Shown here piece by piece: positions 27,661-52,015 of a stretch of 56,018 nt of DNA. The stretch comes from a virus: the IMG/VR virus record IMGVR_UViG_3300043409_000151, positions 1 to 56,018 of that record. One strand, 5' to 3'. Below the pieces are notes generated by a model, which was given only the letters and a program-made list of their open reading frames with translations, made no database searches and was not told the origin of the DNA. The position numbers were made by a program, and so were the translations under genes. Each line of letters starts with the position of its first letter. Within the stretch, counting starts at the first letter, position 1.

Positions 27661-30600
27661 ATGGCAACAGCAGGACTCTCCTTCGCAAACCCGCTCCTGA
27701 GCAAAGTGAACGTGGGGGAGGAGCCAAACCCATACGCGCCGTTCAGCCCCACCTCCAGCATTGGCGGTGGCGGGCTTGGCCCGTCGGCTGCTGACATGGC
27801 TGTCATGGGGGAAACGCTCACCAAGCAAGGCCAGTTCACCATGCCGCAGATGCAAAAGCCTGCGGCCATTGCGTTCAGCCCCTCGCGCAAAGAGTTGTTC
27901 GTCAACGGCTTGACGTTCGCCGCCGACGACGCAGCCACAGCGTTGCAGTCTGAGTCCTACCTGCGCGGCCCCGGCACGGGTCTGCCCACCAGTGGCGACT
28001 GGATGCCGCTCGACGAGCAAGCCTACGGCCAGTACCTCCAGTCCATCCGGGAACCTAGCCTTGGCCGACTGGCGTCCAAATCCTTCGGGCGTGGCGTTGA
28101 CCAGTTGCAGATGCTGGCTGGGCGTGGCCTCCAACTGGCTGGCGCTGAGGAACTGGGTGGCCGCATTGTTGAGCAGCAAGGTGCAGACCTTGCCAAGACC
28201 TCGCCCTATGAGCGCCAGTTCACCGACATCGAGTCGGGCCGGGGTGCCGTCGAGTGGTTCGTAGCCAACTTCGCCCAGCAGGGGCCGAACATGATCGAGT
28301 CCATCGCCACGGCGGGACTGGGTTTCCTCGCGGGTACCGCTGCTGGTGGCCCGTTGGCTGGCGCTGGTGGTGCGATAGCTGGCCTCATGGGCAAAGCCGC
28401 ATTCAAGGAAGCCGTCATCGCTGCGGCCAAGAAGAAAGCCGCAGGCGAAGTAATCAACGCTGCTGAGAACAAGTTGCTGCGTGAAGCTGCCGGTCTGGCC
28501 GGTGCAGTTGCTGCGACCTACGGCCAGAATCTTGCCACGGGTGCGGCTGACATCTACGGCGAACTGCGCGAGCAGGGAGCCAATGCAGAAGACGTGGATG
28601 CCCGCATGAAGGCGCTGGCCGGGTCGATCCCCTACGCCGCGCTGGACACACTGCCTGAGTTCTTGCTGGCCTCCCGCCTGTTCGGCGGTGGCTTAGGCCG
28701 CGCTGCGTTGCCTGCCGGGGCTACTCGCACCCAGCAAGCTGGTGAACTGCTCAAGCGTGGCGCGATAGGTTTCGGTGTGGGCGGTACGCTCGAAGGCTCC
28801 ACAGAGTCTGGACAGGAAGCTCTGCTGCTGGGTATCTCCGGCCAAGACCTCTCCTCGCCCGAGGGTGTCAACCGCCTGATCAACTCGTTCGCCGCTGGCT
28901 TTGGTATCGGTGGCCCACTGGGTGGTGTTGCCAACCTGCGCAGCCGCCAACCTGAGAACCTGCTGAACCCGGCCCAACCCGCCGCAATCACTCCGGGGCG
29001 CGATCTTGTGCCCGTGGAAGGCACCGGTTTCACTGGATTCCCCCGTGGCGGCTACACGCCTGCCCCTCCCGGCACAGCGGTGGCTCCATACTTCACGCCT
29101 GTTACCCCAACGGGTGCAACCCCCGGCGCTCCGCTCCAACTGGGTGGCCCTGCCGCGCCCACTGCGCTGGGACTCCCCGCGCCTACCCAGCCGCTCACTC
29201 CAGTGGGTGGCCCAGTCATCATGGCTGGCATGGGGCCGGGTGCTGCGGATGTCACCCGCCAAGATGTTCTGCTGCGTCAGCAGGGCAACGTGCCGCCCGG
29301 TGTGGCCCCCGGCTCCCAAGGTGTGCTCGACATCTTTGGTGGCACGATCCCCGCTCAAGAACTGGCTGCACGGATGCAGCCGCAACCGCCCCTGCCCGGA
29401 CTGCCTGCGCCAGCGCCAGTCGTGACACCCGATCCCCGCCAAGGTGCGCTCCAGTTCGCTGGCCCAGCGCCCGTCGCACCTGTCAACACGCAGATGGGCA
29501 ACCAGTTGCAGGTCATCCAAGACCGCCTGCGTCGCCAGCAAGAGTTCGAGGCCGCGCAGGCCCAGCAAGCTGCGCTCATCCAGCAACAGACTGAGGCACT
29601 TGCGCAGCAGAGCGCGAACGCCCGTGACCTATATGACATGCAGCAGGCACAGCAAGCTGCTGCCGGACAGCAACCCATGCCCATGCGCCAAGCTGGCCCG
29701 ACCCAGCCTGTGCAGTTACCCCTGTTCGGTGGTGGCCTGCCGCGCCCAACTCGCGGTGAGCGCCTGCGTGCCGCTCAACCGCTGCCAACTACCACTGCGC
29801 TGCCTGAAGGCACGCTGTTGACACAGCCCGCGCAGCAAGAAGTGGCCGGGGAGACTCGCGCCGATCTGGAGCAAGAGCGCGATCAGCTTCAACGGATTGT
29901 GGCGGCGTACCAATCCAAGGGTACCAATCGCATCACTGCGCCCATCCGGGACAACGCGATCAAACGCTTGCGTGAGATCGAGAAAACGCTGGCAGCAATG
30001 CCCGCCGAAGACCGTGGTCTGCGCCAAGCCTCGACCCAGTTGCCCATGTTCACCCAAGAAGGTGAGCCGACACTGCCTGCGCTCCGTGCTGCTGGTGTCA
30101 AAACCAAGGTAGCCCCCACTCCGCCCAAGCCCCGCGCTACACAAACGCCCGGTGCCCGTGGCCTGCGCAGGGGTGCCAAGGTTGCAGAAGTCACTGTCAA
30201 GGAGACACCAAGTGCCGTTCCAAAGCCAAGCGCAAAGAAAGTACCTGCACGCCAACAACCCGAAGCTGGCAAAGGAGTGGGAGCAGAAGTACCCGCCAAA
30301 GGGAAAGCTGCCCCCAAAGGTGAAGCCCTCAAAGCCAAAACCGAAAAGCCAGCCGCCAAGAAGTCGCTGAAGAAGGAGGCACCCCAGCCCCCAAAAGCCG
30401 TGGCGGCACCAGCCGCCGCCCCCGCCGTAACAGAGACTCCGGCTGAAACATGGGACGCGATGGACACTGGCGTCGAGTGGACTGCACTCTCGCCCGAACA
30501 ACAGACTCGTTGGACTGACAGCGACCGTACCCAGAACACTGCGGACACCATCGCTGAGGATGTGCGCAATCCGCAAACACCTGAAGCGTTGTGGGAGGAC

Positions 30601-33600
30601 ATGAAGCCCGAGGGTGCGCCTGAGTATGGCGAACTGGACGCATCTGAGCGCACTCAGTGGCGCAAAGATGTTGCCGATGGCAAAGCCACAATCGAACGCG
30701 CTGCGGAACTGGCAGGTGCGAAAGAAACCCCACTGCAACTGGTCAACAGCGAGTTCGCTGCCGCCGAGGGGGCCACTGACATCCGTGACTTTGCTGATGC
30801 GATCAGCACCGTGGTGGAGTTTGCTTACACTGCCGGTGAGGATACCAATATTCTCGCTGCGGTTCTGCGTGCCCGTGAACTGATGGCAACCACCAGCTTT
30901 ACCGACGCCCAGCAAAATGCCATCGACACCGTGTTGATCGAACTGGTCAACACCAAGAAAGAAATCGAGGCGGTCTACAAGAGCGATGCGGCCAAGAGCG
31001 GTGCAGTCAAGGGCGACTCCAAGCCGTGGTTTGATTACGCTGTCCAGCGTGGGTTGCTGCCCCAAATCACCACCGTGGTCAAAGGTCTGTCGGTCGATGC
31101 CGCCACCAAGATGCTGGACTCCGGCCAACTGCGCGTCGCCAACCTGCCTGCCGATACGGTCAAGAAGTACAAGGCCAGTGTTGGCCCGGTCAGCGGCGTT
31201 ATCGGCAAGGCTGGTGCCAACCTGAAGAACGACACCCGCTCCAACGCCGCCACGGCGCTGTCGGACGAGATCAAGAAGATCAACACGTATACGGGTGTCC
31301 CCTACAACCCAACTACGCGCAAGAACGCCACCAAGAAGTTGCGTGATCTGTGGGCTGCTGCCCGCGCCGCAGGTATGGAGTTGTTTGTCGATCAGAACGG
31401 CAACATGCTGGCTGACTACTTCGATGAGGACGGCACTCCTTTCACTGGCACCATCAAGGGGCAGTTCCGTGTCGCCACTGAGGAGGTGACTGAGGACGTT
31501 CGCTCTAAGCGTGAACAGATCATTGACGAGGACAATATCGCGGCAGACGACGACTATGAAGCGCCGTTCTCGATGGACGACTGGAATGCCGGTGGCCCCG
31601 CCGACGATTGGAATGGCCGATACTTCCGCGACGACGGCACGCCAATCAACAACCCAATCCCGCTGGGACGTGTGAAGATGTTGGTCAGTGCGTTCCTGTC
31701 CAAGCTAGGCATCAAGCCGAAGGTGCAGGTCTACCGCAACCAAGCGGACTTCAAAGCCAAGAACCCCAAGCTGTACGCGCAGGCTGCGGCCTCGCGCCCG
31801 CAGGGTGACTTCGACACGGCCAGTGCCGTGGGCTTCTCGTTCGGTGACGGCAACGTCATCATCTTCGCTGACCGGGTTGCCACTGAGCAGCAACTGAAGT
31901 TTGTGCTGGCCCACGAAACGCTGGGCCACTTTGGTTTCCGTGGTCTGTTGACCGAGAAGGAACTGAACGCCGCCCTCGACGGGGTGTACAACTCCAGCCC
32001 CAAGGTCAAGGCGGCAGTGGACACTGCCATGAAGGCCCGCAAGATGTCGCGCCAAGAAGCCACTGAGGAATACCTCGCTGACTTCGCCGGGATGTTGGAC
32101 ACCAACATCATCGCCCGGTTCTGGAACGCCGTGAAGAACGCGCTGAACAAACTAGGTATGACGTTCGAGGACGACATGGCCCGCTATCTGGTCAGCCAGT
32201 CCCGCCGCTACGTGCGCAACGGCACCACCAGCGGCACCTTCATGGACTTCAAGGCGATGGCCCAGCGCATGAGCGCGATTGAGGGCATGGACGATCCCGA
32301 TGGCTCCGGTCGCTTCGCACTGGCCGGTGAGTACTACGACGAGATCAACCGGGTGGCGGCGTCCAACGCCTCCGGCCAGCGCAGCTTCAAGCTGTTCGAC
32401 ATCACCAGCCTGTTCCAAGACATGAAGGATCGTGGCATCAACATCGGCGACTACACCAACCGCTTGATCGGCGAACTGAAGTCGATGAACTATGCCTCGC
32501 GTGAGAACCAAGGCTACCGCCGCTTGTACGACATCTTCCGCGACACCAGCAAGACCGCAGCGCAACTGCGTGCGCAGTACAACAAGATGATGGATACCGT
32601 GCTGTCCCCCGCCGTAGAGGTGCTGGGTCGCGGGTTCACACAGGGCGCATCCGAGGCGCAGATCGCCAGCACATCGGCCATGCTCAACGTCACCAGCCGT
32701 GTAAAGCTGGGCGACCTGACTGAAGCTGAACTGCGCAAGATGGGTAGCCTGATCACCATCGAAGGTGGTGAAGTCCGCCTGAACCAAGAGGTCTACGACA
32801 TCCTCGCAGCCCGTGGCAAGTTTACGCTGGAGGATTTCAAGAAGGGCATCAAGTACACCATCGGTGTGCCCCGCCCCATGACCGAGGAACAACGTGCCGT
32901 CCTGCGGGCCGAGCGTGACGCTGAGTTGCGCAACGCCGCCTCCGACAAGGAGCGCAAGGCCATCGAGCGCGAGTACCAAAAGCGCATCGACGCTCCCAGC
33001 ACACTCGTCGAAGTGGAGCAGTCGTACCCGGCCATGCCTGATCTGACCGACCAGAGTCCGGAGTGGATCATGTACAACGAGGTGCGTGACACGATGAACA
33101 AGTCGGCCATCGACATGCTGCTGGCGAACTTCGCTGCGGCCAAGGGTGAGCGTGACAACGTGGAGCGTGTTGTGCAGCGGTTCCTCGACCGCGCCCTGAC
33201 CGAGAACGACAAGTCGTTCATCAAGAGGATCGAGGACAAGTACCTGTCCCTGCGGGCCGAAGGCTCCACCATCGACGCCAGTGGTGTCATGCTGACCAAG
33301 CGTGAGTCCGTGGCCGCTGCCAACGACTTCATCAAAAAGTTCAACGCCGCTGTGCTGGGCCGGGACACCGACCGCAATGCAGACGTGCAAGCGTTCTTCG
33401 ACAGCAAGCAGATGGATGACGTGGCCGCTGGCATCGAGGCGCTGAAGAAGGACTCGAACATCCCCCGCTCCGGCCCCGACCGCTTCGTCATGCAGCAGGC
33501 CATCCAGAATCTGGCCCTGTTCGAGTTGAGCAAGACCGACGCTGAACTGCTTGCCAAGCGATCCATCGCTGGTGGCTACGTGCCGTTTGGTCGTGAGGGT

Positions 33601-35985
33601 TCGTGGCAGGTTCGCATCCAAGCCGTTGACCCCAGCACTGGGCGCATCTTCAAGGTGTCGGATACCTACCGCCAGCAACTGCTGTTTGCACAAGTGGAGA
33701 ACCGCGCCGAGGCCGAGGCGATGGCCGAGCGTGTCCAAGGCATGTTCGACGACGTAAAGGATGGCTTCGAGATGGAGGTGCTGGACGGCACCGAGTTCGT
33801 GATCAAGAAAGTCAAACTTGTTGCACAGTCTGAGACGGCCCGTGAAACAGTCTCGACCACGGCGGAGGCCAACCTCAACGAGATCATCTCCGCGATCACC
33901 CGCTTCTCCATCAGCATCACACCAGAGGAGCGTGAGCGCCTGATCGTTGGTCTGACCCAGCAAAACGCCAAGGCCCGTACCCGCCTGAAGCGAGCAGGCA
34001 CACCGGGTGAAGACCCCAACACGATCAAGTACGTGTCGCAACATCTTGAGTCAACCGCATCGACTGTGGCTCGCAAGCAGAACCGTCACCGCCTTGACCG
34101 CCTGTTCGACGACAGCGACCCAGACTCCATCCGCCAGTGGTTCGGGGACAAGACCGAGTACGACAAGCGAAAGGCTGCATGGGAAGCCGCCGAGAAAGAC
34201 CCGGCCATGTCCGAGGCCAAGAAGCTCGCGGCCAAGCGGGAGTTCGACGACTACCACTACACGTTCGTGACCAAGGAATCGCCCGTCATGGGCAACCGCT
34301 TCAAGGATCGTGGCCGTCGGGCCGTGGCCTTCATGGAATCGCAAAGCAACGTGGACTACACGGACTTCGCATCCGGGGAAGCAGCATCTGCAATCCGCAC
34401 GGCAACAACTTTTGCGTTCATGGGCGCATCGTTTGCCACGGCCATCCTGAACTACCTCGCGCTGGCAACCAACGTGTTGCCGTCGTTCTCTGGGTACAAC
34501 CAGAAGAACGCCTTCGGTGGCGGCTTTGGCTGGGGTATGTCAGCGGTGGAGATCAGTCGCGCTACCAACGCCACGAAGGGCTTCGGCCAAAGCGAGATCA
34601 AGTTCTGGGACGACCTGCTGGCTGATCCGGCCAAGCTCAAAGCATCGGGATTCACCGAGGCAGAGGCCCGCTTCATGCTGAAGGAAGTCGGTGGCGGCAC
34701 CATGCAGGCCGCACTGACCAACTCGTTGCTGGGTTCTGCGCGGGGCAAGTTCCGCTCTGGTGCCACGAAGGCTGCGGCAGAAACATGGATGTCGCTGTTC
34801 AACTACACCGAGCAGCACAGCCGCCGTGCAACAGGTTTGGCTGCGTTCCGCATGGCCTACGCACGCGCACTGGTCGAAGGCAAGGACGCTGCAACAGCTT
34901 TTGAGTTGGCTGACAAGTTCGCCGTGGACATGATCGACAACACGCTGGGCGAGTACGCCATGTACAACCGGCCCGCCATGTTCCGTGGCGACGTGCGCCA
35001 GTTCCTGTTCATGTTCAAGATGTTCCCAGTCAACAGTGTCCAGATGCTGGCCGCGCTGCCGCGCAGAGAACAACTACTGGCGCTGGGCATCCTCGCCATG
35101 TTCGCTGGTCTGAAGGGACTGCCCTTCGCAGAAGACTTGATGGACTTGATCGACACCATCGCGCAGGCACTTGGGCTTGGCCCGAACAAGGTCTGGAAGG
35201 GCAGCGCCGAGAAGACGCTGGCCGAAGCACTAGACGCCATCGCACCCGGTATGTCGCCGCTCCTCATGCGCGGCGTAATCAACACATTCACACCTGCCAA
35301 CGTGGCCGACCGTGTGTCGCTGTCCAACATCATCCCCGGTACTGGCATCGCGCTGGCAGGGGCCGACGTGGGGCGTGAACTGATCGAGATCGCAGGGCCA
35401 GTGGCATCCTTCCTGCAAGGTGCTGTGGCAATGTCGGCAGACGTGGCCCGCTACGGACTGGAGACTGTCGGGGTTCTGGACGACAAGACTTCGCTCACCA
35501 AGATCGCCCGCGAGTCGCCAGTTGCCATGCTCCGCGCACTGGGTGATATGGCGGCATACAACAACGCAGGGGCCATCGTCAGCCAGAAGGGCTTCGTGGT
35601 CAGCAACGATCTGCATCTGGGCACCATGCTCACCCGCGCACTGGGCTTCTACCCTGCATCGGCAGTGGCCGAGAACGATGTGGTGCGTTTAGCCAAGCGG
35701 GTCGGCGATTACCAGAAGGATGTTGCTGCAACGTATCGTGGGTTGTACGTCAGCGCCAAGATTGCCAAGGACGAGGGACGTGCCCGCGAAGTGGTGGAGA
35801 TGGTCAAGGACTGGAACGAAGCGGCTGAAGGCACTGGCCTTGAGATTCGCAACTTCAATCAGTCGGCCAACCGCGCACTGCGCGAAGCACAGCGCACTGC
35901 CACGGAACGATTCCTTCGGACTCAGCCGAAGGCGATGCGTCCCGAGACTGAGCGTATCCTCGAACTGTACGGCGTTACGGAGTGA
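27661..35985 (+). CDS. Giant virion/ejection protein (2774 aa), polyvalent-type
   Basis: The largest gene, 8.3 kb. N-terminal region helical; Gly/Ala hydrophobic stretch at about 211-245 (ATAGLGFLAGTAAGGPLAGA); Pro/Gln-rich linkers about 450-720; Lys/Ala/Pro linker about 820-940; HETLGHFGFRG with His1418, Glu1419 and His1423, a HExxGH zincin-like motif; long helical middle; C-terminal part with membrane-prone segments (FAFMGASFATAILNYLALAT near 2252 and LLALGILAMFAGLKGLPFAE near 2472). Giant proteins of this design enter the host with the DNA and can carry protective or processing activities (polyvalent proteins, DarB-like), and they occupy the T7 gp16 position. Which activities it has is unknown beyond the peptidase-like motif. 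Confidence 0.85.
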   Translation: MATAGLSFANPLLSKVNVGEEPNPYAPFSPTSSIGGGGLGPSAADMAVMGETLTKQGQFTMPQMQKPAAIAFSPSRKELFVNGLTFAADDAATALQSESYLRGPGTGLPTSGDWMPLDEQAYGQYLQSIREPSLGRLASKSFGRGVDQLQMLAGRGLQLAGAEELGGRIVEQQGADLAKTSPYERQFTDIESGRGAVEWFVANFAQQGPNMIESIATAGLGFLAGTAAGGPLAGAGGAIAGLMGKAAFKEAVIAAAKKKAAGEVINAAENKLLREAAGLAGAVAATYGQNLATGAADIYGELREQGANAEDVDARMKALAGSIPYAALDTLPEFLLASRLFGGGLGRAALPAGATRTQQAGELLKRGAIGFGVGGTLEGSTESGQEALLLGISGQDLSSPEGVNRLINSFAAGFGIGGPLGGVANLRSRQPENLLNPAQPAAITPGRDLVPVEGTGFTGFPRGGYTPAPPGTAVAPYFTPVTPTGATPGAPLQLGGPAAPTALGLPAPTQPLTPVGGPVIMAGMGPGAADVTRQDVLLRQQGNVPPGVAPGSQGVLDIFGGTIPAQELAARMQPQPPLPGLPAPAPVVTPDPRQGALQFAGPAPVAPVNTQMGNQLQVIQDRLRRQQEFEAAQAQQAALIQQQTEALAQQSANARDLYDMQQAQQAAAGQQPMPMRQAGPTQPVQLPLFGGGLPRPTRGERLRAAQPLPTTTALPEGTLLTQPAQQEVAGETRADLEQERDQLQRIVAAYQSKGTNRITAPIRDNAIKRLREIEKTLAAMPAEDRGLRQASTQLPMFTQEGEPTLPALRAAGVKTKVAPTPPKPRATQTPGARGLRRGAKVAEVTVKETPSAVPKPSAKKVPARQQPEAGKGVGAEVPAKGKAAPKGEALKAKTEKPAAKKSLKKEAPQPPKAVAAPAAAPAVTETPAETWDAMDTGVEWTALSPEQQTRWTDSDRTQNTADTIAEDVRNPQTPEALWEDMKPEGAPEYGELDASERTQWRKDVADGKATIERAAELAGAKETPLQLVNSEFAAAEGATDIRDFADAISTVVEFAYTAGEDTNILAAVLRARELMATTSFTDAQQNAIDTVLIELVNTKKEIEAVYKSDAAKSGAVKGDSKPWFDYAVQRGLLPQITTVVKGLSVDAATKMLDSGQLRVANLPADTVKKYKASVGPVSGVIGKAGANLKNDTRSNAATALSDEIKKINTYTGVPYNPTTRKNATKKLRDLWAAARAAGMELFVDQNGNMLADYFDEDGTPFTGTIKGQFRVATEEVTEDVRSKREQIIDEDNIAADDDYEAPFSMDDWNAGGPADDWNGRYFRDDGTPINNPIPLGRVKMLVSAFLSKLGIKPKVQVYRNQADFKAKNPKLYAQAAASRPQGDFDTASAVGFSFGDGNVIIFADRVATEQQLKFVLAHETLGHFGFRGLLTEKELNAALDGVYNSSPKVKAAVDTAMKARKMSRQEATEEYLADFAGMLDTNIIARFWNAVKNALNKLGMTFEDDMARYLVSQSRRYVRNGTTSGTFMDFKAMAQRMSAIEGMDDPDGSGRFALAGEYYDEINRVAASNASGQRSFKLFDITSLFQDMKDRGINIGDYTNRLIGELKSMNYASRENQGYRRLYDIFRDTSKTAAQLRAQYNKMMDTVLSPAVEVLGRGFTQGASEAQIASTSAMLNVTSRVKLGDLTEAELRKMGSLITIEGGEVRLNQEVYDILAARGKFTLEDFKKGIKYTIGVPRPMTEEQRAVLRAERDAELRNAASDKERKAIEREYQKRIDAPSTLVEVEQSYPAMPDLTDQSPEWIMYNEVRDTMNKSAIDMLLANFAAAKGERDNVERVVQRFLDRALTENDKSFIKRIEDKYLSLRAEGSTIDASGVMLTKRESVAAANDFIKKFNAAVLGRDTDRNADVQAFFDSKQMDDVAAGIEALKKDSNIPRSGPDRFVMQQAIQNLALFELSKTDAELLAKRSIAGGYVPFGREGSWQVRIQAVDPSTGRIFKVSDTYRQQLLFAQVENRAEAEAMAERVQGMFDDVKDGFEMEVLDGTEFVIKKVKLVAQSETARETVSTTAEANLNEIISAITRFSISITPEERERLIVGLTQQNAKARTRLKRAGTPGEDPNTIKYVSQHLESTASTVARKQNRHRLDRLFDDSDPDSIRQWFGDKTEYDKRKAAWEAAEKDPAMSEAKKLAAKREFDDYHYTFVTKESPVMGNRFKDRGRRAVAFMESQSNVDYTDFASGEAASAIRTATTFAFMGASFATAILNYLALATNVLPSFSGYNQKNAFGGGFGWGMSAVEISRATNATKGFGQSEIKFWDDLLADPAKLKASGFTEAEARFMLKEVGGGTMQAALTNSLLGSARGKFRSGATKAAAETWMSLFNYTEQHSRRATGLAAFRMAYARALVEGKDAATAFELADKFAVDMIDNTLGEYAMYNRPAMFRGDVRQFLFMFKMFPVNSVQMLAALPRREQLLALGILAMFAGLKGLPFAEDLMDLIDTIAQALGLGPNKVWKGSAEKTLAEALDAIAPGMSPLLMRGVINTFTPANVADRVSLSNIIPGTGIALAGADVGRELIEIAGPVASFLQGAVAMSADVARYGLETVGVLDDKTSLTKIARESPVAMLRALGDMAAYNNAGAIVSQKGFVVSNDLHLGTMLTRALGFYPASAVAENDVVRLAKRVGDYQKDVAATYRGLYVSAKIAKDEGRAREVVEMVKDWNEAAEGTGLEIRNFNQSANRALREAQRTATERFLRTQPKAMRPETERILELYGVTE

Positions 35986-40548: not shown

Positions 40549-40995
40549 TCAGTCCTCTGCCTTGGCACCGGGTTTGCGAATGTTCACCTCCAGCTTGGTG
40601 CCGTATGTAATGCCGGGGGGAACTGCTTTGTTTGCTTCGATGTATCCACGCACAGCGATCTTGCTCACACGCTTCTCCAGCATGTCGTAGGCATCGTTGT
40701 CGCGGATGAATGTCAGCACTGCATCCCAGTCGCCCACGTTTGCATAGTCCGTGGTGGTCAGGAAAGCGGTGCCGTAGTCCGACTTGAAACTGGTCAAGCC
40801 CTGCGCGTCCATCTGCGTCTTGAGGAACGCTTCGAGCTTCTCCAGCTTGGCCTTGATCGTGGACACTTCGTCCTTGACCCGAGCCTCGACGGCAGCTTTC
40901 TGATCGCGCAGCTTCATGTAGGTGCGGATCACATCACCTACGTTGGGCACGTTTATACGGAGTCGTGCGTCCGATGCTACTTCGTTGTCGCTCAT
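40549..40995 (-). CDS. Coiled-coil protein, Gam/Gp157-like layout
   Basis: A 148-residue protein. An N-terminal coiled coil (MKLRDQKAAVEARVKDEVST, then KAKLEKLEAFLKTQM, about 26-62) precedes a small beta-rich domain with KSDYGTAFLTTTDYANV and a C-terminal helix-strand. The order (long coiled coil, then a YGT-type strand) resembles the Gam host-nuclease-inhibitor or Gp157 groups of phages, which protect DNA ends or resist host defences. The similarity is only in layout, so the assignment is tentative. Confidence 0.6.
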   Translation of the reverse strand: MSDNEVASDARLRINVPNVGDVIRTYMKLRDQKAAVEARVKDEVSTIKAKLEKLEAFLKTQMDAQGLTSFKSDYGTAFLTTTDYANVGDWDAVLTFIRDNDAYDMLEKRVSKIAVRGYIEANKAVPPGITYGTKLEVNIRKPGAKAED

Positions 40996-43883: not shown

Positions 43884-44065
43884 TTCTTTTCCTCGGGTGG
43901 ATCGAATCGGCAGGCGGTATGGACAACCTCACCCTGCCCGTAGTTGTAGAACTGCTGGCCTACCTCAAAGCGGCCATTGCAAATTGCGCAGCGGTGCGGG
44001 GCGAACGGCCCACCGGGTGGGAACAACTTGCTGTGCTCCCGTGGGTCTGGATGTATGGGCGTCAT
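43880..44065 (-). CDS. Zinc-finger mini-protein (61 aa)
   Basis: Start ATG 44065 overlaps the polymerase stop (TGATG). The protein is 61 residues with Cys26 and Cys29 (CAICNGRF), then His49 and Cys52 (VVHTAC), a zinc-binding treble-clef or ribbon arrangement, with a proline-rich start and charged end. Could bind DNA or a host protein. One of several zinc mini-proteins in the early arm. Confidence 0.72.
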   Translation of the reverse strand: MTPIHPDPREHSKLFPPGGPFAPHRCAICNGRFEVGQQFYNYGQGEVVHTACRFDPPEEKK

Positions 44066-45948
44066 CACGTGTCTCCATAGTTCGCAGCCATGCCAGATTC
44101 GCAGGCCACAGGTAAATCGGGTGCCCACTTGGGGGCGGTGGACATCAGGGCTTCGAGCTTGGCTTGGTCGGCCAGCGCGTTGTCCTCGGGCACAGCGACG
44201 ATGATCTCGTCGTGGACTTGGAAGGCCACCTTGAAGTGCAGTCCGGCAGCGGCCATCTGCTCACGGATCACCAATGCAGCAAGAGCTTGCACGATGTTCT
44301 CCGTCACCTTGCCACCATAGATGCGTGTCCATGCGATGTCGTCAGGGGGTGAGCCAGTGAGCACACGATCCTTGAGCGCCTTCTGATAGGTGCGGGCATC
44401 CGAGATGTACATGAAGCCGTTGGCCGTCTCGCGCAGCGCCGGGTACTGCACCCTGAACCCGTTGGGCAGGATGATGCCGCCCTTGTCGTAGCGCACCTTG
44501 GGGTGCAACTCGTTGCCACCACCGTACAACATGTCCTTGAGTGCTGCGCCGCACTTCTGCCAGAACTGCACGATCTTCCAGTTCTTCTGTCGGTACAGCC
44601 GGACGATCCGCTCTGCCTCATTGATGTCGATCACCACGTTGATGCCGCCTTGGCCGATCTCCAGTGTGCGTCTGAACTTCTCAGCGCCCATGCCGTAGCC
44701 CAGCCCAAGCACACAGGTCTTGCCGACGAACCGTTCGATCTTGTCAGCCTTGGTGATGGCACGACCGTAGACCTCAGTGGCGAACTCGGAGTACACATCC
44801 CGCTTGTCACGGAACGCCACCAGCAAGTCCTCTTGCCCAGCCAGCCATGCCACAGTACGTGCCTCGATCTGCGATGAGTCACATGAGATCAGCATCTGCC
44901 CCGGTGGTGCCTTCAGTGCCCTGCGGATGGTCGTGTTGCCACGACTTGGCAGGTTCTGGAGGTTGAGCTTGTCACCGCCACTGAAGCGCCCAGTGTGGGC
45001 ACCGTAGTAGTTGAGCATGATGGGCAGCTTGCCCCGTCCGGCCACACCGATCAGGTTCTCGGTGCGGGTTTCTTCGAGGGTGGACTTGACCCCGAGGCGA
45101 GCAGACACCGCTGCCTGCACACGTTCGTCAACATGTTCCAGCATGTCGGTCATGCCCTTGTCCGTCTTGGCGAAGGCCCATGACTCCTTGCCTGTCTTCA
45201 GACTGGTCTTGGTGGGCGGCTCCACACCCAACCGCTTGAGGTATTCAGCGAACTTGTCGTTGGACATGAGCATGTCCTGCACCGCCTGCGCCCCACCCAT
45301 GCCTTGGCCGAGGTCTTGGATCAAGGTGCGCTTGCGGGTGCGCACTTCCTCAAGATGCTTCTCCAGCAGTGGCACGTCAAGTTCAATCACTGGGTCGGTG
45401 TACATCCTCAGCGTCTGATCAATCACCAACAACTCGCTGGATGGGAAACCCACCTTGAGCTTGTCGAACAGTTGCTTGGTCATGTTCACATCGTTCTTGC
45501 AGTACTCGCCGTACTGCGCGAGGTCAGCCTCAGTGAAGTCAGCTTTGCGCTTGCCCAGTGCAGCCACCACCTCGTCGCCCTTCTTGCCCAGCCCGTAGTA
45601 CGCCGCCAGCTTGGCGAGTGAGCCACCCACCGTGACGTTGTGCAAGGGCCGCGCCATGCCCAGAGTGTCCAGCCACAGCCTTGGGTTGATGCCGAAATGC
45701 CACGACAGGATGGCCCCATCGAACGCTGTGTTGTGGCACAGGATGGCCCGCTTGCTGTAGTCCAGTGACTTGAGGAACTTGCCGGGGTTGTCGCCGCTGT
45801 ACCAGTCAGTGGGGTAGTCGTTGACCTTGACGCCCACTCCGATGACCTCGAACAAAGAACTGCGAACGTATTGCTCGGTGGTCATCTTCGACAGCGAGAA
45901 GTCCTTGTCGTAGTAGGTTTCAAAGTCGATGGTTACGATGTCCATCAT
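44065..45948 (-). CDS. Family A DNA polymerase with 3'-5' exonuclease
   Basis: The replicative polymerase, 627 residues. Exonuclease motifs: Asp8/Glu10 (IDFETY), Asn73/Asp77 (CHNTAFDGA), Tyr149-x3-Asp153. Polymerase motif A CDSSQIEAR with Asp357 and Glu362; motif B R406, K410, L414, Y418 (in the pattern RxxxKxxxLxxxYG); motif C VHDE at 578-581. There is no 5'-3' exonuclease domain. The residue matching E. coli Phe762 is Leu414. ATGA overlap with the gene upstream. Placed at the head of the recombination/replication block. Confidence 0.96.
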   Translation of the reverse strand: MMDIVTIDFETYYDKDFSLSKMTTEQYVRSSLFEVIGVGVKVNDYPTDWYSGDNPGKFLKSLDYSKRAILCHNTAFDGAILSWHFGINPRLWLDTLGMARPLHNVTVGGSLAKLAAYYGLGKKGDEVVAALGKRKADFTEADLAQYGEYCKNDVNMTKQLFDKLKVGFPSSELLVIDQTLRMYTDPVIELDVPLLEKHLEEVRTRKRTLIQDLGQGMGGAQAVQDMLMSNDKFAEYLKRLGVEPPTKTSLKTGKESWAFAKTDKGMTDMLEHVDERVQAAVSARLGVKSTLEETRTENLIGVAGRGKLPIMLNYYGAHTGRFSGGDKLNLQNLPSRGNTTIRRALKAPPGQMLISCDSSQIEARTVAWLAGQEDLLVAFRDKRDVYSEFATEVYGRAITKADKIERFVGKTCVLGLGYGMGAEKFRRTLEIGQGGINVVIDINEAERIVRLYRQKNWKIVQFWQKCGAALKDMLYGGGNELHPKVRYDKGGIILPNGFRVQYPALRETANGFMYISDARTYQKALKDRVLTGSPPDDIAWTRIYGGKVTENIVQALAALVIREQMAAAGLHFKVAFQVHDEIIVAVPEDNALADQAKLEALMSTAPKWAPDLPVACESGMAANYGDT

Positions 45949-47660: not shown

Positions 47661-48290
47661 TCAGATACCAAACTTGGCAGCAGTACTCATGGCAGTAAGT
47701 TTGCCGATGTCAACATCGAGTACCACCTCGTTCTTGGTACGTTCCTTGATCTCACGGTGCTTGTCCTTGACATCATCAGGGATCAAGTCCCACAGGGGAG
47801 GCCATGCCTTGAGTGCCGGGGCCAGAGTAGAGTAGGCATCGCATATCTTCTTGACCATAGCCACGAACTCATCGCGGCGCTTGGCTGCTTCCTGAACACG
47901 TTGGTGGTAGGCAGTCACCTCTGCATGGAACTCGCCCCAGACAATGTTATCCCTGAGGTTGATGGAATCTCCATAGGTTGAATTCTTGCAGGCCAACCCA
48001 GTATCAGGGAACACATACGGCCACGGCTGCGGCGTAGCGAAATCGAAGGTCATATTGCAAACGGCATTGCCGACCCTGCCGATCTCAATATGCTTCATTG
48101 TCTTCAACCATCCAGCAGGAACTTGCGAGATGGTTGGCTTGGCTTCGAGGAACATGGTGTCGTAGATGCGCTGACCCCAGTTGGCGTCGAGCTTCTGCTC
48201 CTTGACCCGGTTCACTGCGGGTTCCATCTTGGCACGGGCCTGCTTCTCGATGCGGTCGATGAGTTCTTTGCTGAAACGTACTGTAGCCAT
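47661..48290 (-). CDS. Hypothetical protein (209 aa)
   Basis: ATG 48290 has AAGGAG six bases upstream. The 209-residue protein begins ATVRFSKELIDRIEKQARAK (amphipathic helix), has a mixed central region with Trp/Pro-rich ATPQPWPYVFPDTGLACKNS, then a long helix (VTAYHQRVQEAAKRRDEFVA) and a C-terminal charged segment. It looks like a soluble protein conserved among phages with this gene order, but I cannot name it. No catalytic motif seen. Confidence 0.72.
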   Translation of the reverse strand: MATVRFSKELIDRIEKQARAKMEPAVNRVKEQKLDANWGQRIYDTMFLEAKPTISQVPAGWLKTMKHIEIGRVGNAVCNMTFDFATPQPWPYVFPDTGLACKNSTYGDSINLRDNIVWGEFHAEVTAYHQRVQEAAKRRDEFVAMVKKICDAYSTLAPALKAWPPLWDLIPDDVKDKHREIKERTKNEVVLDVDIGKLTAMSTAAKFGI

Positions 48291-48300
48291 GTGATTCTCC

Positions 48301-48543
48301 TTATTGAATGGGGTGTGTTTGAACGGACATGCTTGACATGATGTGGTCAAGCTGCACTGCGACATGCAGGCAGTACTCCTGCTGGGTTAGCGTTGAGTCC
48401 TTGCCAGCCATTGCCAGCATGGTGATCAGAGCGTTGACTGTGACACTGAACTCGTCGTTACTGTCACGCATCATGTCGTTGATCTTCGTGACCACAGCCA
48501 TGACTCGGTTGTGGTACTGGTCTTCGTTGGTTACGGTGTCCAT
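48301..48543 (-). CDS. Small protein downstream of VWA gene
   Basis: An 80-residue helical protein (EDQYHNRVMAVVTKINDMMR, VNALITMLAMAGKDSTLTQ, QEYCLHVAVQLDHIMSSMS). Start ATG 48543 overlaps the upstream stop (TGATG). A hydrophobic, helical core without a clear membrane segment. It may be the last member of the AAA+/VWA module, given the coupling. Confidence 0.68.
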   Translation of the reverse strand: MDTVTNEDQYHNRVMAVVTKINDMMRDSNDEFSVTVNALITMLAMAGKDSTLTQQEYCLHVAVQLDHIMSSMSVQTHPIQ

Positions 48544-49682
48544 CAGTTCATCTCCACAACTTCACCGAAGGGTGCGGTGCCGGGATCAGTCGTGACCCAC
48601 AGCACTGGTGCATCGGGCTGATCACCGAAGCTGTTGCAGCACAGGTCAGTGAGGAACACGATGGCAACGGGGTTGATCCCGAGTTTAACAATCTTGTCGA
48701 AGACCGGAGCAAAGTCAGTGCCTCCACCGCCGTGAGGCTTGATGTCGAGGTCGTCGTGCTGCTCATAGGATTCCACATGGCTGACCTCACTGTCGAAGTA
48801 CAGCACATGGATACGCTCAGGCATCAGGTCTTCCTTGACCCGCTTGATCTCGGAAGCGAACTGGTTGACAGTCTTCTGGTCGATGGAGCCAGAGCAATCC
48901 ACAGCGAAGCACACCTCACCCATCTGCTCACCGCTGACACTGGGCAAGTACAGTCCTTGTGCAATGAAGCGACGATTAAACCGGGCAAAGGATCGCTGGT
49001 CTGTCCGTGCTTTCACGAGGAACTTCTGCATCACCTCACGCCAGTCCACCTTGGGTTGCAGCACCTCATCCACAAGACGTTGCATGTTGGCAGACATCTT
49101 GCCCATCATCTTCGCTGCTTGCGCAGCTTGGGCCACCTTCACCTTCCACTCAGCTTGCTGTTGCTGCTGCTCGGCAGGGCTACCGTCACCGTCCTCACAG
49201 TCATCCAGTGGGCCACCGGGTTCACCAGCACCGGAGCCACCGCTCTCATCCTGTTCAGGCAGGATGTTGTAGATGCCCTCACTGGTGCCGTGCCCAGCGT
49301 TGTAGATCGCATCGTTGTGCAGTCCGACCTTGGGCATCCGACCGATACTCTCATCGGTCAACAGCTTGTTAATCACGTAGTCAGCGGCCATGTTCCAGCG
49401 TCTGGATTGCCGCCCACCACGCCGGAAGTTGTGCTCCAACATGGGGTGGAAGCACTCGTGGGCAACGAGGAACTTGACCTCCTCATCGGTCAGTGAGTCC
49501 ACAAACTCGGGGTTGAACTTGATCCGCTTGCCGTTGGTGGCAGCGGTCTTGATGCTCTCATCGAACTCGAAGGGCATACTCAGGGCGATGGTGCCCACAA
49601 AGGGATGCTCCAAGATCAGAGCGGTCTTGGCCTTCGCCAGCTTGGTGGTCAGCTTCTTCATGTCAAGCGTTGCAGTTGTCAT
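48543..49682 (-). CDS. Metallopeptidase-like (HExxH) plus VWA protein
   Basis: A 379-residue protein, ATG 49682 with AAGGAGA upstream. N-terminal half resembles the DUF2201 putative metallopeptidase: HECFHPMLEH with His75, Glu76 and His79, then NMAADYVINKLL. A Gly/Ser/Glu/Gln-rich acidic linker (145-178) leads to a VWA-like domain with an intact metal site: VDCSGSID (Asp262, Ser264, Ser266), GGTDFAP (Thr322) and FLTDLCC (Asp346). In bacteria such proteins pair with MoxR AAA+ ATPases as metal-insertion or complex-remodelling chaperones; a MoxR-like gene lies three genes upstream. Target unknown. Confidence 0.85.
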   Translation of the reverse strand: MTTATLDMKKLTTKLAKAKTALILEHPFVGTIALSMPFEFDESIKTAATNGKRIKFNPEFVDSLTDEEVKFLVAHECFHPMLEHNFRRGGRQSRRWNMAADYVINKLLTDESIGRMPKVGLHNDAIYNAGHGTSEGIYNILPEQDESGGSGAGEPGGPLDDCEDGDGSPAEQQQQQAEWKVKVAQAAQAAKMMGKMSANMQRLVDEVLQPKVDWREVMQKFLVKARTDQRSFARFNRRFIAQGLYLPSVSGEQMGEVCFAVDCSGSIDQKTVNQFASEIKRVKEDLMPERIHVLYFDSEVSHVESYEQHDDLDIKPHGGGGTDFAPVFDKIVKLGINPVAIVFLTDLCCNSFGDQPDAPVLWVTTDPGTAPFGEVVEMN

Positions 49683-49873
49683 CAGTCTCTCCTTGGTTTG
49701 CGTTTCTTGGGTACGTTGCGCCATGAACTACCTAGTCGCTGCCGTAGCAGCAACAGGACAGGCCCAGCGATGTCATCGTATACACCGGGATCGGTCTTCA
49801 GGATCACTTGGATCAGGTCATACGCTGCTTGTATGGCAGTGCCGTCAGCGTCAAAGATGTCCTCCTTGTTCAT
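49682..49873 (-). CDS. Small protein in the AAA+/VWA cluster (63 aa)
   Basis: A 63-residue protein with an acidic start (NKEDIFDADGTAIQAAYDLI) and a basic end (RNVPKKRKPRRD). Overlaps the VWA gene start by one base and the upstream gene by four. Helical. It may be a connector or regulator of the module. Unrecognised. Confidence 0.65.
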   Translation of the reverse strand: MNKEDIFDADGTAIQAAYDLIQVILKTDPGVYDDIAGPVLLLLRQRLGSSWRNVPKKRKPRRD

Positions 49874-50157
49874 GTGTTTTTCTCCCTCAGTGCCATCATC
49901 GTGGCAATCACCACTTCATACACACCGTCTCGCAGTCTTGGGTCAGTGATGGCGATGTTGTTGTCGATGATTGCATCCATCTCGGCCATCTCTAGCTCAA
50001 TGAACTCCTTGGATGCAACAATCCCAAACACGTGCCCACACCCCACACACCGCAGTGTGGTGCGGTTGTTTAGCTTGCCGTGGCGATACCGCAGTACCTC
50101 AAACACAGTTCGCTCAGTGCATTGCGGACAGTGCATCTTCTCGATAGTGATCCGCAT
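49870..50157 (-). CDS. Zinc-ribbon protein (95 aa)
   Basis: ATG 50157 (TGATG overlap with the upstream stop). N-terminal zinc ribbon: Cys10/Cys13 (MHCPQCTERT) and Cys37/Cys40 (RCVGCGHVF), then an alpha-helical part (EFIELEMAEMDAIID, LRDGVYEVVIATMMALRE). Similar to small transcription-factor-like zinc ribbons. Could contact RNA polymerase or DNA. Sits between the coiled-coil protein and the VWA protein. Confidence 0.75.
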   Translation of the reverse strand: MRITIEKMHCPQCTERTVFEVLRYRHGKLNNRTTLRCVGCGHVFGIVASKEFIELEMAEMDAIIDNNIAITDPRLRDGVYEVVIATMMALREKNT

Positions 50158-51005
50158 CACAGTGCTCCCATGAATGCACCCATTGCATCCATGATTTTCT
50201 TGGCTTCCGCAGCAGTGTCTTGCCGCAGGTCAGGGTCGTTACGTAATGCCTCGGGGTGCTTGATCAGGGATGCCTCAACCTGTTGCCGCATGGCTTCCAA
50301 GTTGGGATCATCGGTGAAGTTCAAGCGGGGCAGCAAGGCACAGATTTCACGGGTGTTCTCCAGCATGGAGTCACGGAAGATCGCCTTGGGGTCAGCCAGC
50401 TTCTCAGCCATGTGCTTCACCCTGTCGTACAGCCGCTGCCACACGTCCTTCAGAGCCGCTTGCTCTGCCTCCTTCACACGTCTCTCAACGTCTTGCTGGA
50501 TGCGAGACAACTCCTCAGAGCCGATGGCAACCCGAAAGTCCGAGCTTGGTACTGGGAACACAACCATGTCCATGTGGAACTTGACACGCAGGTCAGCCTT
50601 ACTGGGGTAGTCAGCAGCGCTGTACAAGGAGCCAAGGATGCGCTGTGCATCCAGCATGTCCTGCTCGTAGTCGTCGTAGAACTCCTGCACCAGACCGTTC
50701 CACTCGCCTCGTTCCTTGCGGAACTCAGACATGAAGGACAGGTAGTTGGCAGTGGGCAGCATCATGGTGCCGTCCATGCCCCAAGGCAGGGTGTTGTCGT
50801 AGTACTTGGTGCGGATGTGGGTCGTCTTCTTGTGGATATTCTCCAGCTTGTCGTTCATGGGCAGCAAGGACTTGTTGAAGCGGCCAGCAGCAGAGCTTGC
50901 GCCATGTGCTGTCGTCACCTCCTTGGATGCTCGCTTGTCATACTTGCGGGCTGTCCACTGGGACACGTTCAGTTGCACCAATAGTGCGCGGTCATTGAGA
51001 TTCAT
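50157..51005 (-). CDS. Helical protein linking MoxR and VWA genes
   Basis: ATG 51005 has AGGAG eight bases upstream. 282 residues, N-terminal part with basic QLNVSQWTARKYDKRASKEV and SSAAGRFNKSLLP, then TYYDN-type YYDNTLPWGMDGTMMLP, a coiled coil (LSRIQQDVERRVKEAEQAAL), and a C-terminal helical region. Always positioned between the ATPase and the VWA protein in this cluster, it is a candidate client, adaptor or substrate of the AAA+ machine. I do not recognise a named family. Confidence 0.75.
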   Translation of the reverse strand: MNLNDRALLVQLNVSQWTARKYDKRASKEVTTAHGASSAAGRFNKSLLPMNDKLENIHKKTTHIRTKYYDNTLPWGMDGTMMLPTANYLSFMSEFRKERGEWNGLVQEFYDDYEQDMLDAQRILGSLYSAADYPSKADLRVKFHMDMVVFPVPSSDFRVAIGSEELSRIQQDVERRVKEAEQAALKDVWQRLYDRVKHMAEKLADPKAIFRDSMLENTREICALLPRLNFTDDPNLEAMRQQVEASLIKHPEALRNDPDLRQDTAAEAKKIMDAMGAFMGAL

Positions 51006-51028
51006 AGTGTTAACTCCTCTTTGGTTGA

Positions 51029-52015
51029 TTAAAACAATACGTCTTGGTGGTTGATAGACCACTTGGTGAAGGCTTGGGTGTTAGCCAAGTCAGGGTTGCG
51101 CCGTGCTGCATAGCTGATGGTCAGCACAGAGAACTCGGGAGGCATACGTTCAGAGTACTGGCAGACCCTCTCGAAGTTGGACTCGGTAGCACGTTGGGCC
51201 AAGGCACCAGACAGGGCATACAGGGTCGCTGGGTCTTTGGGAACGTCAGCAGTTTGAGGGTTGAGCAGGATAGCGTCAGGGTTGGGCAGCTTGCGGAAGA
51301 TACGTACAAACCCTACGAACTCGGCAGCAGCACCCTCACCGACAGCACCTTTGAAGCACTCGAACTCAGCCTCGGCAGGCACGGTGCCCAGCACATCGGA
51401 CACACCATCCACCCATGCTCTGGGAGTTGCGTTCTGGTCACGCTGTGGATCGAAGTCATGCAACAGACCGGGACGGAAGCGGATGAAGCTGATCACCTCG
51501 GGCTTGACACCGTGGTTGATGGCCCATGAAGTCCAGTCGTCGAGGTGGGTTTCCAACTCGATCACAGTCTCACGGTTACGGAGGTGACTCAGCACCCGGT
51601 TGGCACCAGCACGGTCAGACTGCCTGTTGCCAGTGGACACCACCATCCAGCCATCCGGCATCGGTACACCGTGCAGTGTCCGGGCTTGGCAGATGTTGGC
51701 AAGCACCTTCTGGAGATCAGGGCCAGCTTGGTTGCGGTCATCGAACAGCAGGATGCCAGCCTCGGGAGCTTTGCCCTTGACAGGGAACCAGTCAGGGAGG
51801 CGGTAGTTCAGCTTGTCGCTGCCGTCTGGGAACAGGATGCCGAAGTCCTCGACCAACATGGTTGGCATGTGACGCTCGATACAGGGGATGTCAAGTTCCT
51901 GTGCAACCTCGTGGACGATGGTCGTCTTGCCACCGCCGGGGCTACCCTCAATGGACAGGGTACGGGTGATGGGGAACAGAGACTTGATGGTTTCTTTCAG
52001 CAGAGTGGCTCGCAT
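51029..52015 (-). CDS. MoxR-like AAA+ ATPase
   Basis: A 328-residue AAA+ protein. Walker A GSPGGGKT (24-31), Walker B LLFDDRNQA (89-97; Asp92-Asp93 where most MoxR proteins have Asp-Glu), sensor 1 VSTGNR (126-131), and a basic stretch RVLSHLRNRE (140-149) in the arginine-finger region. C-terminal helical lid. MoxR ATPases work with VWA-domain partners as chaperones; here the VWA/HExxH protein is in the same operon. It overlaps the upstream gene by 19 bp. Ribosome site is weak and lies in the preceding gene. Confidence 0.9.
   Translation of the reverse strand: MRATLLKETIKSLFPITRTLSIEGSPGGGKTTIVHEVAQELDIPCIERHMPTMLVEDFGILFPDGSDKLNYRLPDWFPVKGKAPEAGILLFDDRNQAGPDLQKVLANICQARTLHGVPMPDGWMVVSTGNRQSDRAGANRVLSHLRNRETVIELETHLDDWTSWAINHGVKPEVISFIRFRPGLLHDFDPQRDQNATPRAWVDGVSDVLGTVPAEAEFECFKGAVGEGAAAEFVGFVRIFRKLPNPDAILLNPQTADVPKDPATLYALSGALAQRATESNFERVCQYSERMPPEFSVLTISYAARRNPDLANTQAFTKWSINHQDVLF

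Follow-up and report, generated by a model that had tools for sequence, protein, structure and literature searches.

A conserved gene trio of AAA+ ATPase, middle protein and putative metallopeptidase-VWA protein in phages and on plasmids

Genes at the locus

The DNA analysed here, called the window below, is a 56,018-base virus record from IMG/VR, IMGVR_UViG_3300043409_000151. It carries five adjacent genes on the minus strand, in a single leftward run upstream of a DNA polymerase gene. An earlier note, made from the letters of the window alone, had placed all five genes correctly and had interpreted them as a coupled set suggestive of a dedicated phage machine. In the direction of transcription, they encode an AAA+ ATPase of 328 residues (51029–52015), a mostly helical protein of 282 residues designated as MID (50157–51005), a zinc ribbon protein of 95 residues (49870–50157), a protein of 63 residues (49682–49873), and a putative metallopeptidase-VWA protein of 379 residues (48543–49682), hereafter the VWA protein. 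Three of the gene joints are TGATG or ATGA overlaps, and translation is therefore probably coupled. The ATPase, MID and VWA genes were revealed to constitute a conserved unit, which is present in related viral loci and on plasmids.

The ATPase matches PHROG 1297 (E 4e-70) and is of the same type as gp24 of phage N4. All core AAA+ motifs are present, including GSPGGGKT (Walker A) and LLFDD. The Walker A motif and the Asp-Asp of Walker B were both recognized in the earlier note; residues G24, P26–T31, D92, D93 and N130 are invariant among 44 relatives. The scores against the MoxR-type Pfam models AAA_5 (18.8 bits, cut-off 22) and AAA_3 (13.1 bits, cut-off 27) are slightly below the cut-offs, and the nearest solved structure in a profile search is midasin (E 3e-5). 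The protein is described as MoxR/midasin-like. Walker B reads Asp-Asp in the phage group of the window and in Burkholderiales plasmids; in MinM2, in Rhodovastum and in the two-gene systems described below it reads Asp-Glu.

The VWA gene most likely starts at ATG 49682, because an AAGGAG site and a TGATG overlap with the stop codon of the 63-residue gene are found there; this start gives 379 residues instead of the 393 of the open reading frame. The protein matches PHROG 1314 (E 8e-105) and, in Pfam, DUF2201_N (PF13203; 163 bits, cut-off 23.2, E 1e-47) followed by DUF2201 (PF09967; 101.6 bits, cut-off 26.4, E 4e-29). As the earlier note had proposed, an HExxH motif (HECFH) is joined to a VWA domain with a complete metal ion-dependent adhesion site (MIDAS; DCSGS...T...D). 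H75, E76 and H79 as well as the MIDAS residues D262, S264, S266, T322 and D346 do not vary among 54 close relatives. These residues, together with H84 and D101, are identical in 13 diverse phage and plasmid proteins whose identity goes down to ~27–37%. The top PDB matches of its AlphaFold model (mean predicted local distance difference test, pLDDT, 80) by Foldseek are VWA domains. The N-terminal half shows weak matches to MJ1213 (E 0.0015) and an M48 peptidase (E 0.0037) in a profile search of solved structures, and these fit the expectation of a zincin. Judged from the sequence, the N-terminal half is probably a zincin-type metallopeptidase, with D101 (N-x3-D) as a candidate third zinc ligand. 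The pCAR1-type proteins described below likewise show N-x3-D after HExxH. PHROGs and many phage records give PHROG 1314 the name "HNH endonuclease", although what the sequence contains is HExxH plus VWA.

MID starts at ATG 51005, preceded by AGAGGAG. A profile of diverse MIDs was aligned to plasmid DUF3150 proteins with hhalign with the probability 90 and the E-value 1.5e-6 over the N-terminal 142 columns. The score is 53.8; none of the 200 column-shuffled controls exceeded 23.9, and a reversed control scored 24.9. The predicted structure is matched best by a phage protein that carries the name DUF3150 (E 4.5e-16), and no solved fold resembling MID was found at E ≤ 0.001. By profile comparison and predicted structure, MID is distantly related to plasmid DUF3150 without being a member of that family, and the relationship concerns the N-terminal half only.

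The trio in related viruses, phages and plasmids

Two scans of IMG/VR gave 154 viral loci on partly duplicated contigs. Co-occurrence was counted only for loci with sufficiently long flanks, and these are closest relatives and not independent of one another. A VWA gene lies downstream of MID in 76/76 loci and an ATPase gene lies upstream in 62/62, and all 50 evaluable VWA loci carry both ATPase and MID with the order kept. The spacing between MID and VWA is <100 nucleotides in 104 of the 146 loci (partly duplicated). The median identity to the window is 83/71/70% for the trio proteins and 75% for the DNA polymerase, against 42–49% for the immediate neighbour genes. The conserved unit consists of the three genes ATPase-MID-VWA. 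The middle protein, which the earlier note had included without a name, is thus conserved with the ATPase and the VWA protein. The zinc ribbon, which that note had counted as a machine part, and the 63-residue gene are each found in 4 of the 50 VWA loci, and there is usually no room for them. The five-gene unit was rejected for this reason.

The DNA polymerase gene is located ~3.4 kb downstream on the same strand in 29/29 evaluable long loci, and terL, where seen in long loci, is on the opposite strand. The "early operon" of the earlier note stands as a replication-side operon.

In tblastn searches against phage records, the VWA protein matched 559 records and the ATPase 715, many of which are Schitoviridae or have a similar genome size. 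MID matched three records (OQ594354, OL906435 and PP438419), in which the order is AAA, one small gene, MID, three small genes and VWA. Each of the three is exactly 65,014 bases long with an identical MID, and the hosts given for them are Synechococcus, Planktothrix and Planktothricoides; they are possibly one phage under three hosts.

Using the MID of this phage as a query, 42 plasmids were found. A VWA search returned the same plasmid genera, and the VWA genes adjoin MID where the coordinates were compared. The order AAA-MID-VWA was observed in five fully read plasmid regions, from Rhodovastum, Cupriavidus, B. cenocepacia, Robbsia and Simplicispira; in the last of these, the ATPase gene lies farther upstream. 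In the P. acidisoli plasmid the ATPase is not listed in an incomplete gene table. Several plasmid trios are located beside PRTRC and type IV secretion genes, none has the zinc ribbon or the 63-residue gene, and no virion genes were found in the trio-bearing plasmid regions read. The trio of Burkholderiales and Rhodovastum plasmids (AAA, DUF3150-like, DUF2201) corresponds to that of the window in its three homologous proteins and in their order, and the idea of a dedicated phage machine is not supported. The sole bacterial chromosomal match of MID is an 83% identical contig binned in a metagenome-assembled genome of an uncultured actinobacterium. Given this identity, the contig probably belongs to the phage group of the window and was binned with its host, which is a weak hint at an actinobacterial host.

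The pair of ATPase and peptidase-VWA protein is already known in phages. N4 gp24/gp25 (PHROG 1297/1314; Schitoviridae) count among the proteins that N4-like viruses share (PMC7650795). They resemble the window genes in being an adjacent, homologous ATPase and HExxH/VWA protein on the replication side. N4 gp25 (1165–2307 of the N4 stretch) contains HELWH and DTSGS and shows 26% identity to the window VWA protein (E 1e-35). In the window, too, the VWA gene is on the same strand as the ATPase gene, with MID and two more genes in between. Unlike in the window, no MID is present between gp24 and gp25 or in the other pairs checked, and the ATPases are separated from the trio type. In the ATPase tree, ten trio members from phages and plasmids are placed on one side of a branch and seven two-gene or unpaired relatives on the other, with support 97/96. 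MID equivalents were sought in two-gene systems (phiFa, a Thermus plasmid, phage G gp569, the XC38 intervening gene and MinM2 gene 72), with no match. A MoxR and metallopeptidase-vWA pair was reported from group 2.2 jumbo phages, with a proposed role in virion assembly (Iyer et al. 2021, PMC7824862); it has the same two-protein architecture as the window, and the available part of that paper describes no third component. A two-gene ATPase and metallopeptidase-VWA pair is also encoded near toxin-antitoxin genes on the Synechocystis 6803 plasmid pSYSA (7928–10206).

The pCAR1 operon ORF100–109, which its authors link to transfer, holds an AAA-DUF3150-HExxH/VWA set (PMC2642839). The order of ORF101–103 (AAA+, DUF3150, HExxH+VWA) is that of the window, whereas the ATPase belongs to another subfamily (CbbQ_C present) and the VWA protein is longer (604 residues, not DUF2201). 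In a profile comparison of pCAR1-type and window-type VWA proteins, homology was found only in the VWA domain. The pCAR1-type set is a parallel, more distant set relative to the trio. DUF3150 is present on 1118 plasmids, and in IncC and other conjugative plasmids DUF3150-VWA comes after Bet/RecT and a lambda-type exonuclease, usually beside them. Relative to the literature outside subscription papers, the new findings are the kinship of MID with DUF3150 and the AAA-MID-VWA trio common to phages and plasmids. No function of the ATPase/peptidase-VWA pair was found in that literature, and gene-fitness data for N4 gp24/gp25, sought in a published source, were not found.

Possible roles of the trio

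The trio is tentatively interpreted as a three-subunit, ATP-driven machine that would remodel, and probably cut, proteins in the DNA phase of phages and large plasmids; this interpretation is preferred here with a confidence falling somewhat short of even. We infer that the three proteins form a complex. The ATPase would form a MoxR/midasin-like ring, with the VWA protein as its cofactor and as a zincin-type metallopeptidase through its N-terminal half. MID would be the third subunit, likeliest an adaptor or scaffold bringing the client, because it is the sole family-specific part. The ring may pull on the VWA partner, or on a client held through MIDAS, and the peptidase may clip the client so exposed. 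The fusion of the peptidase to VWA points to cutting of the client in addition to remodelling. NorQD, whose mechanism is established (PMC13036017), offers by analogy a template for a ring that holds a VWA protein and a MIDAS that binds a client. The likeliest client would be a protein on or around the DNA of the element, such as a host or own replication or recombination factor or a DNA-bound block, and not a virion protein, because virion-less plasmids carry the trio and the phage copies sit with replication genes.

Several results weigh against this interpretation. MID shows no match to the Pfam model DUF3150 (PF11348) at E ≤ 1, and its predicted fold is moderately confident (pLDDT 76, predicted template modelling score 0.50). 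In the VWA tree, from which gene 13 of the Vibrio phage VBP47 was left out as a wrong gene, a single origin of the trio is not rejected (p of the approximately unbiased test 0.09–0.14), and the topology leaves it undecided. An operon neighbourhood is weak functional evidence, and the dense early regions of plasmids and phages hold many unrelated genes. A more specific version is doubtful: phages and conjugative plasmids would share a so far unrecognised three-subunit ATP-driven metalloprotease in which a DUF3150-type protein is the obligate adaptor. This protease would clear away or process proteins on the element DNA during replication, recombination or establishment, and the N4-type two-gene pairs would be its relatives.

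Counter-defence or host takeover is an unlikely alternative, in which the machine would remove or destroy a host defence or regulatory protein and help an incoming phage and plasmid alike. The occurrence of the trio in both kinds of elements, its early-side position and its wide but patchy distribution agree with this role, whereas all three proteins are highly conserved, unlike fast-evolving anti-defence genes. Known defence-system families show only P-loop-level similarity to the window proteins, in a search whose reach does not include inhibitors. MoxR-vWA ternary conflict systems have linked effectors and a linked third component of the VMAP, iSTAND or FtsH type (Kaur et al. 2020, PMC7159879). 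In the window the third component is MID, which is DUF3150-like, and none of these domains was matched in the neighbours scanned by general searches, without dedicated models of them.

A role in virion assembly or maturation, with the ATPase-VWA pair as a chaperone and the peptidase processing structural proteins, is improbable. It is the role proposed for the same architecture in jumbo phages, with an analogy to Acidianus two-tailed virus (PMC7824862), and the pair is among the genes shared by N4-like phages (PMC7650795). However, the same trio is found on plasmids without virion genes in the regions read, the phage trio lies in a replication-side run beside the DNA polymerase, with terL on the other strand, and N4 gp24/gp25 are likewise on the replication side. 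A machine of the DNA phase is therefore favoured over the published proposal. The conserved third subunit and the plasmid trio turn the guess of a chaperone for virions into a testable question, namely which process common to phages and plasmids needs the trio.

Metal insertion or enzyme activation as by NorQ-NorD or CbbQ-CbbO, with the ring twisting the VWA partner and HExxH binding metal or peptide without cutting, is still less probable than a role in virion assembly: the established NorQD mechanism and the full MIDAS speak for it, but the CbbQ_C and CoxE/NorD models were unmatched in the Pfam searches of the window ATPase and VWA protein, respectively, and the invariant HExxH predicts peptidase chemistry. 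RavA-ViaA, CbbQ-CbbO and NorQ-NorD have a way of working in common with the window, an AAA+ ring with a VWA/MIDAS cofactor. The likeness to RavA-ViaA and CbbQ-CbbO drawn in the earlier note is retained as mechanistic only, given the two unmatched models. To our knowledge, none of these systems has a DUF2201 peptidase domain or MID.

The ATPase/peptidase-VWA pair matters because it is common to N4-like phages and was matched in >500 phage records. Laboratory-friendly models are offered by the N4 pair and by the trio copies on plasmids.

Flanking genes and the rest of the window

The zinc ribbon is of the CPxCG type (CPQC...CVGC) and matches PF19769 (E 3e-7). Its start is probably ATG 50157, giving 95 residues, and not GTG 50160, because ATG 50157 lies in a TGATG overlap with the MID stop codon. 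It is a lineage-specific insertion between MID and VWA, outside the conserved core. The 63-residue open reading frame, which belongs to the same insertion, exists as described and has no family match in library searches.

In 140/140 related phage loci, a 234-residue gene (47661–48365, minus strand) comes directly or farther downstream after the module and is regarded as a phage-side neighbour. It was rejected as a fourth subunit: constant in these phages, it was not found beside the plasmid copies of the trio, and a comparison with plasmid and phage records did not detect it. It shows a weak match (E 0.014) to Nmad5, a nucleotide-modification associated family.

The DNA polymerase gene (44065–45948, minus strand; PHROG 17) is located downstream in the same leftward run. 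Other PHROG matches on the minus strand are primase/helicase, helicase and exonuclease, and those on the plus strand are terminase, head-tail adaptor, major head protein, internal virion protein and tail proteins. The earlier note called the phage lytic; no integrase was found among the window proteins scanned, which is not an exhaustive test of lifestyle. No nucleotide-level relatives of the window were found in phage records. A 2774-residue protein is encoded on the virion-gene strand (27661–35985, plus strand), with matches only in its C-terminal part, to unnamed phage families. The replication operon includes a 148-residue gene (40549–40995, minus strand) whose PHROG match bears the label "minor head protein".

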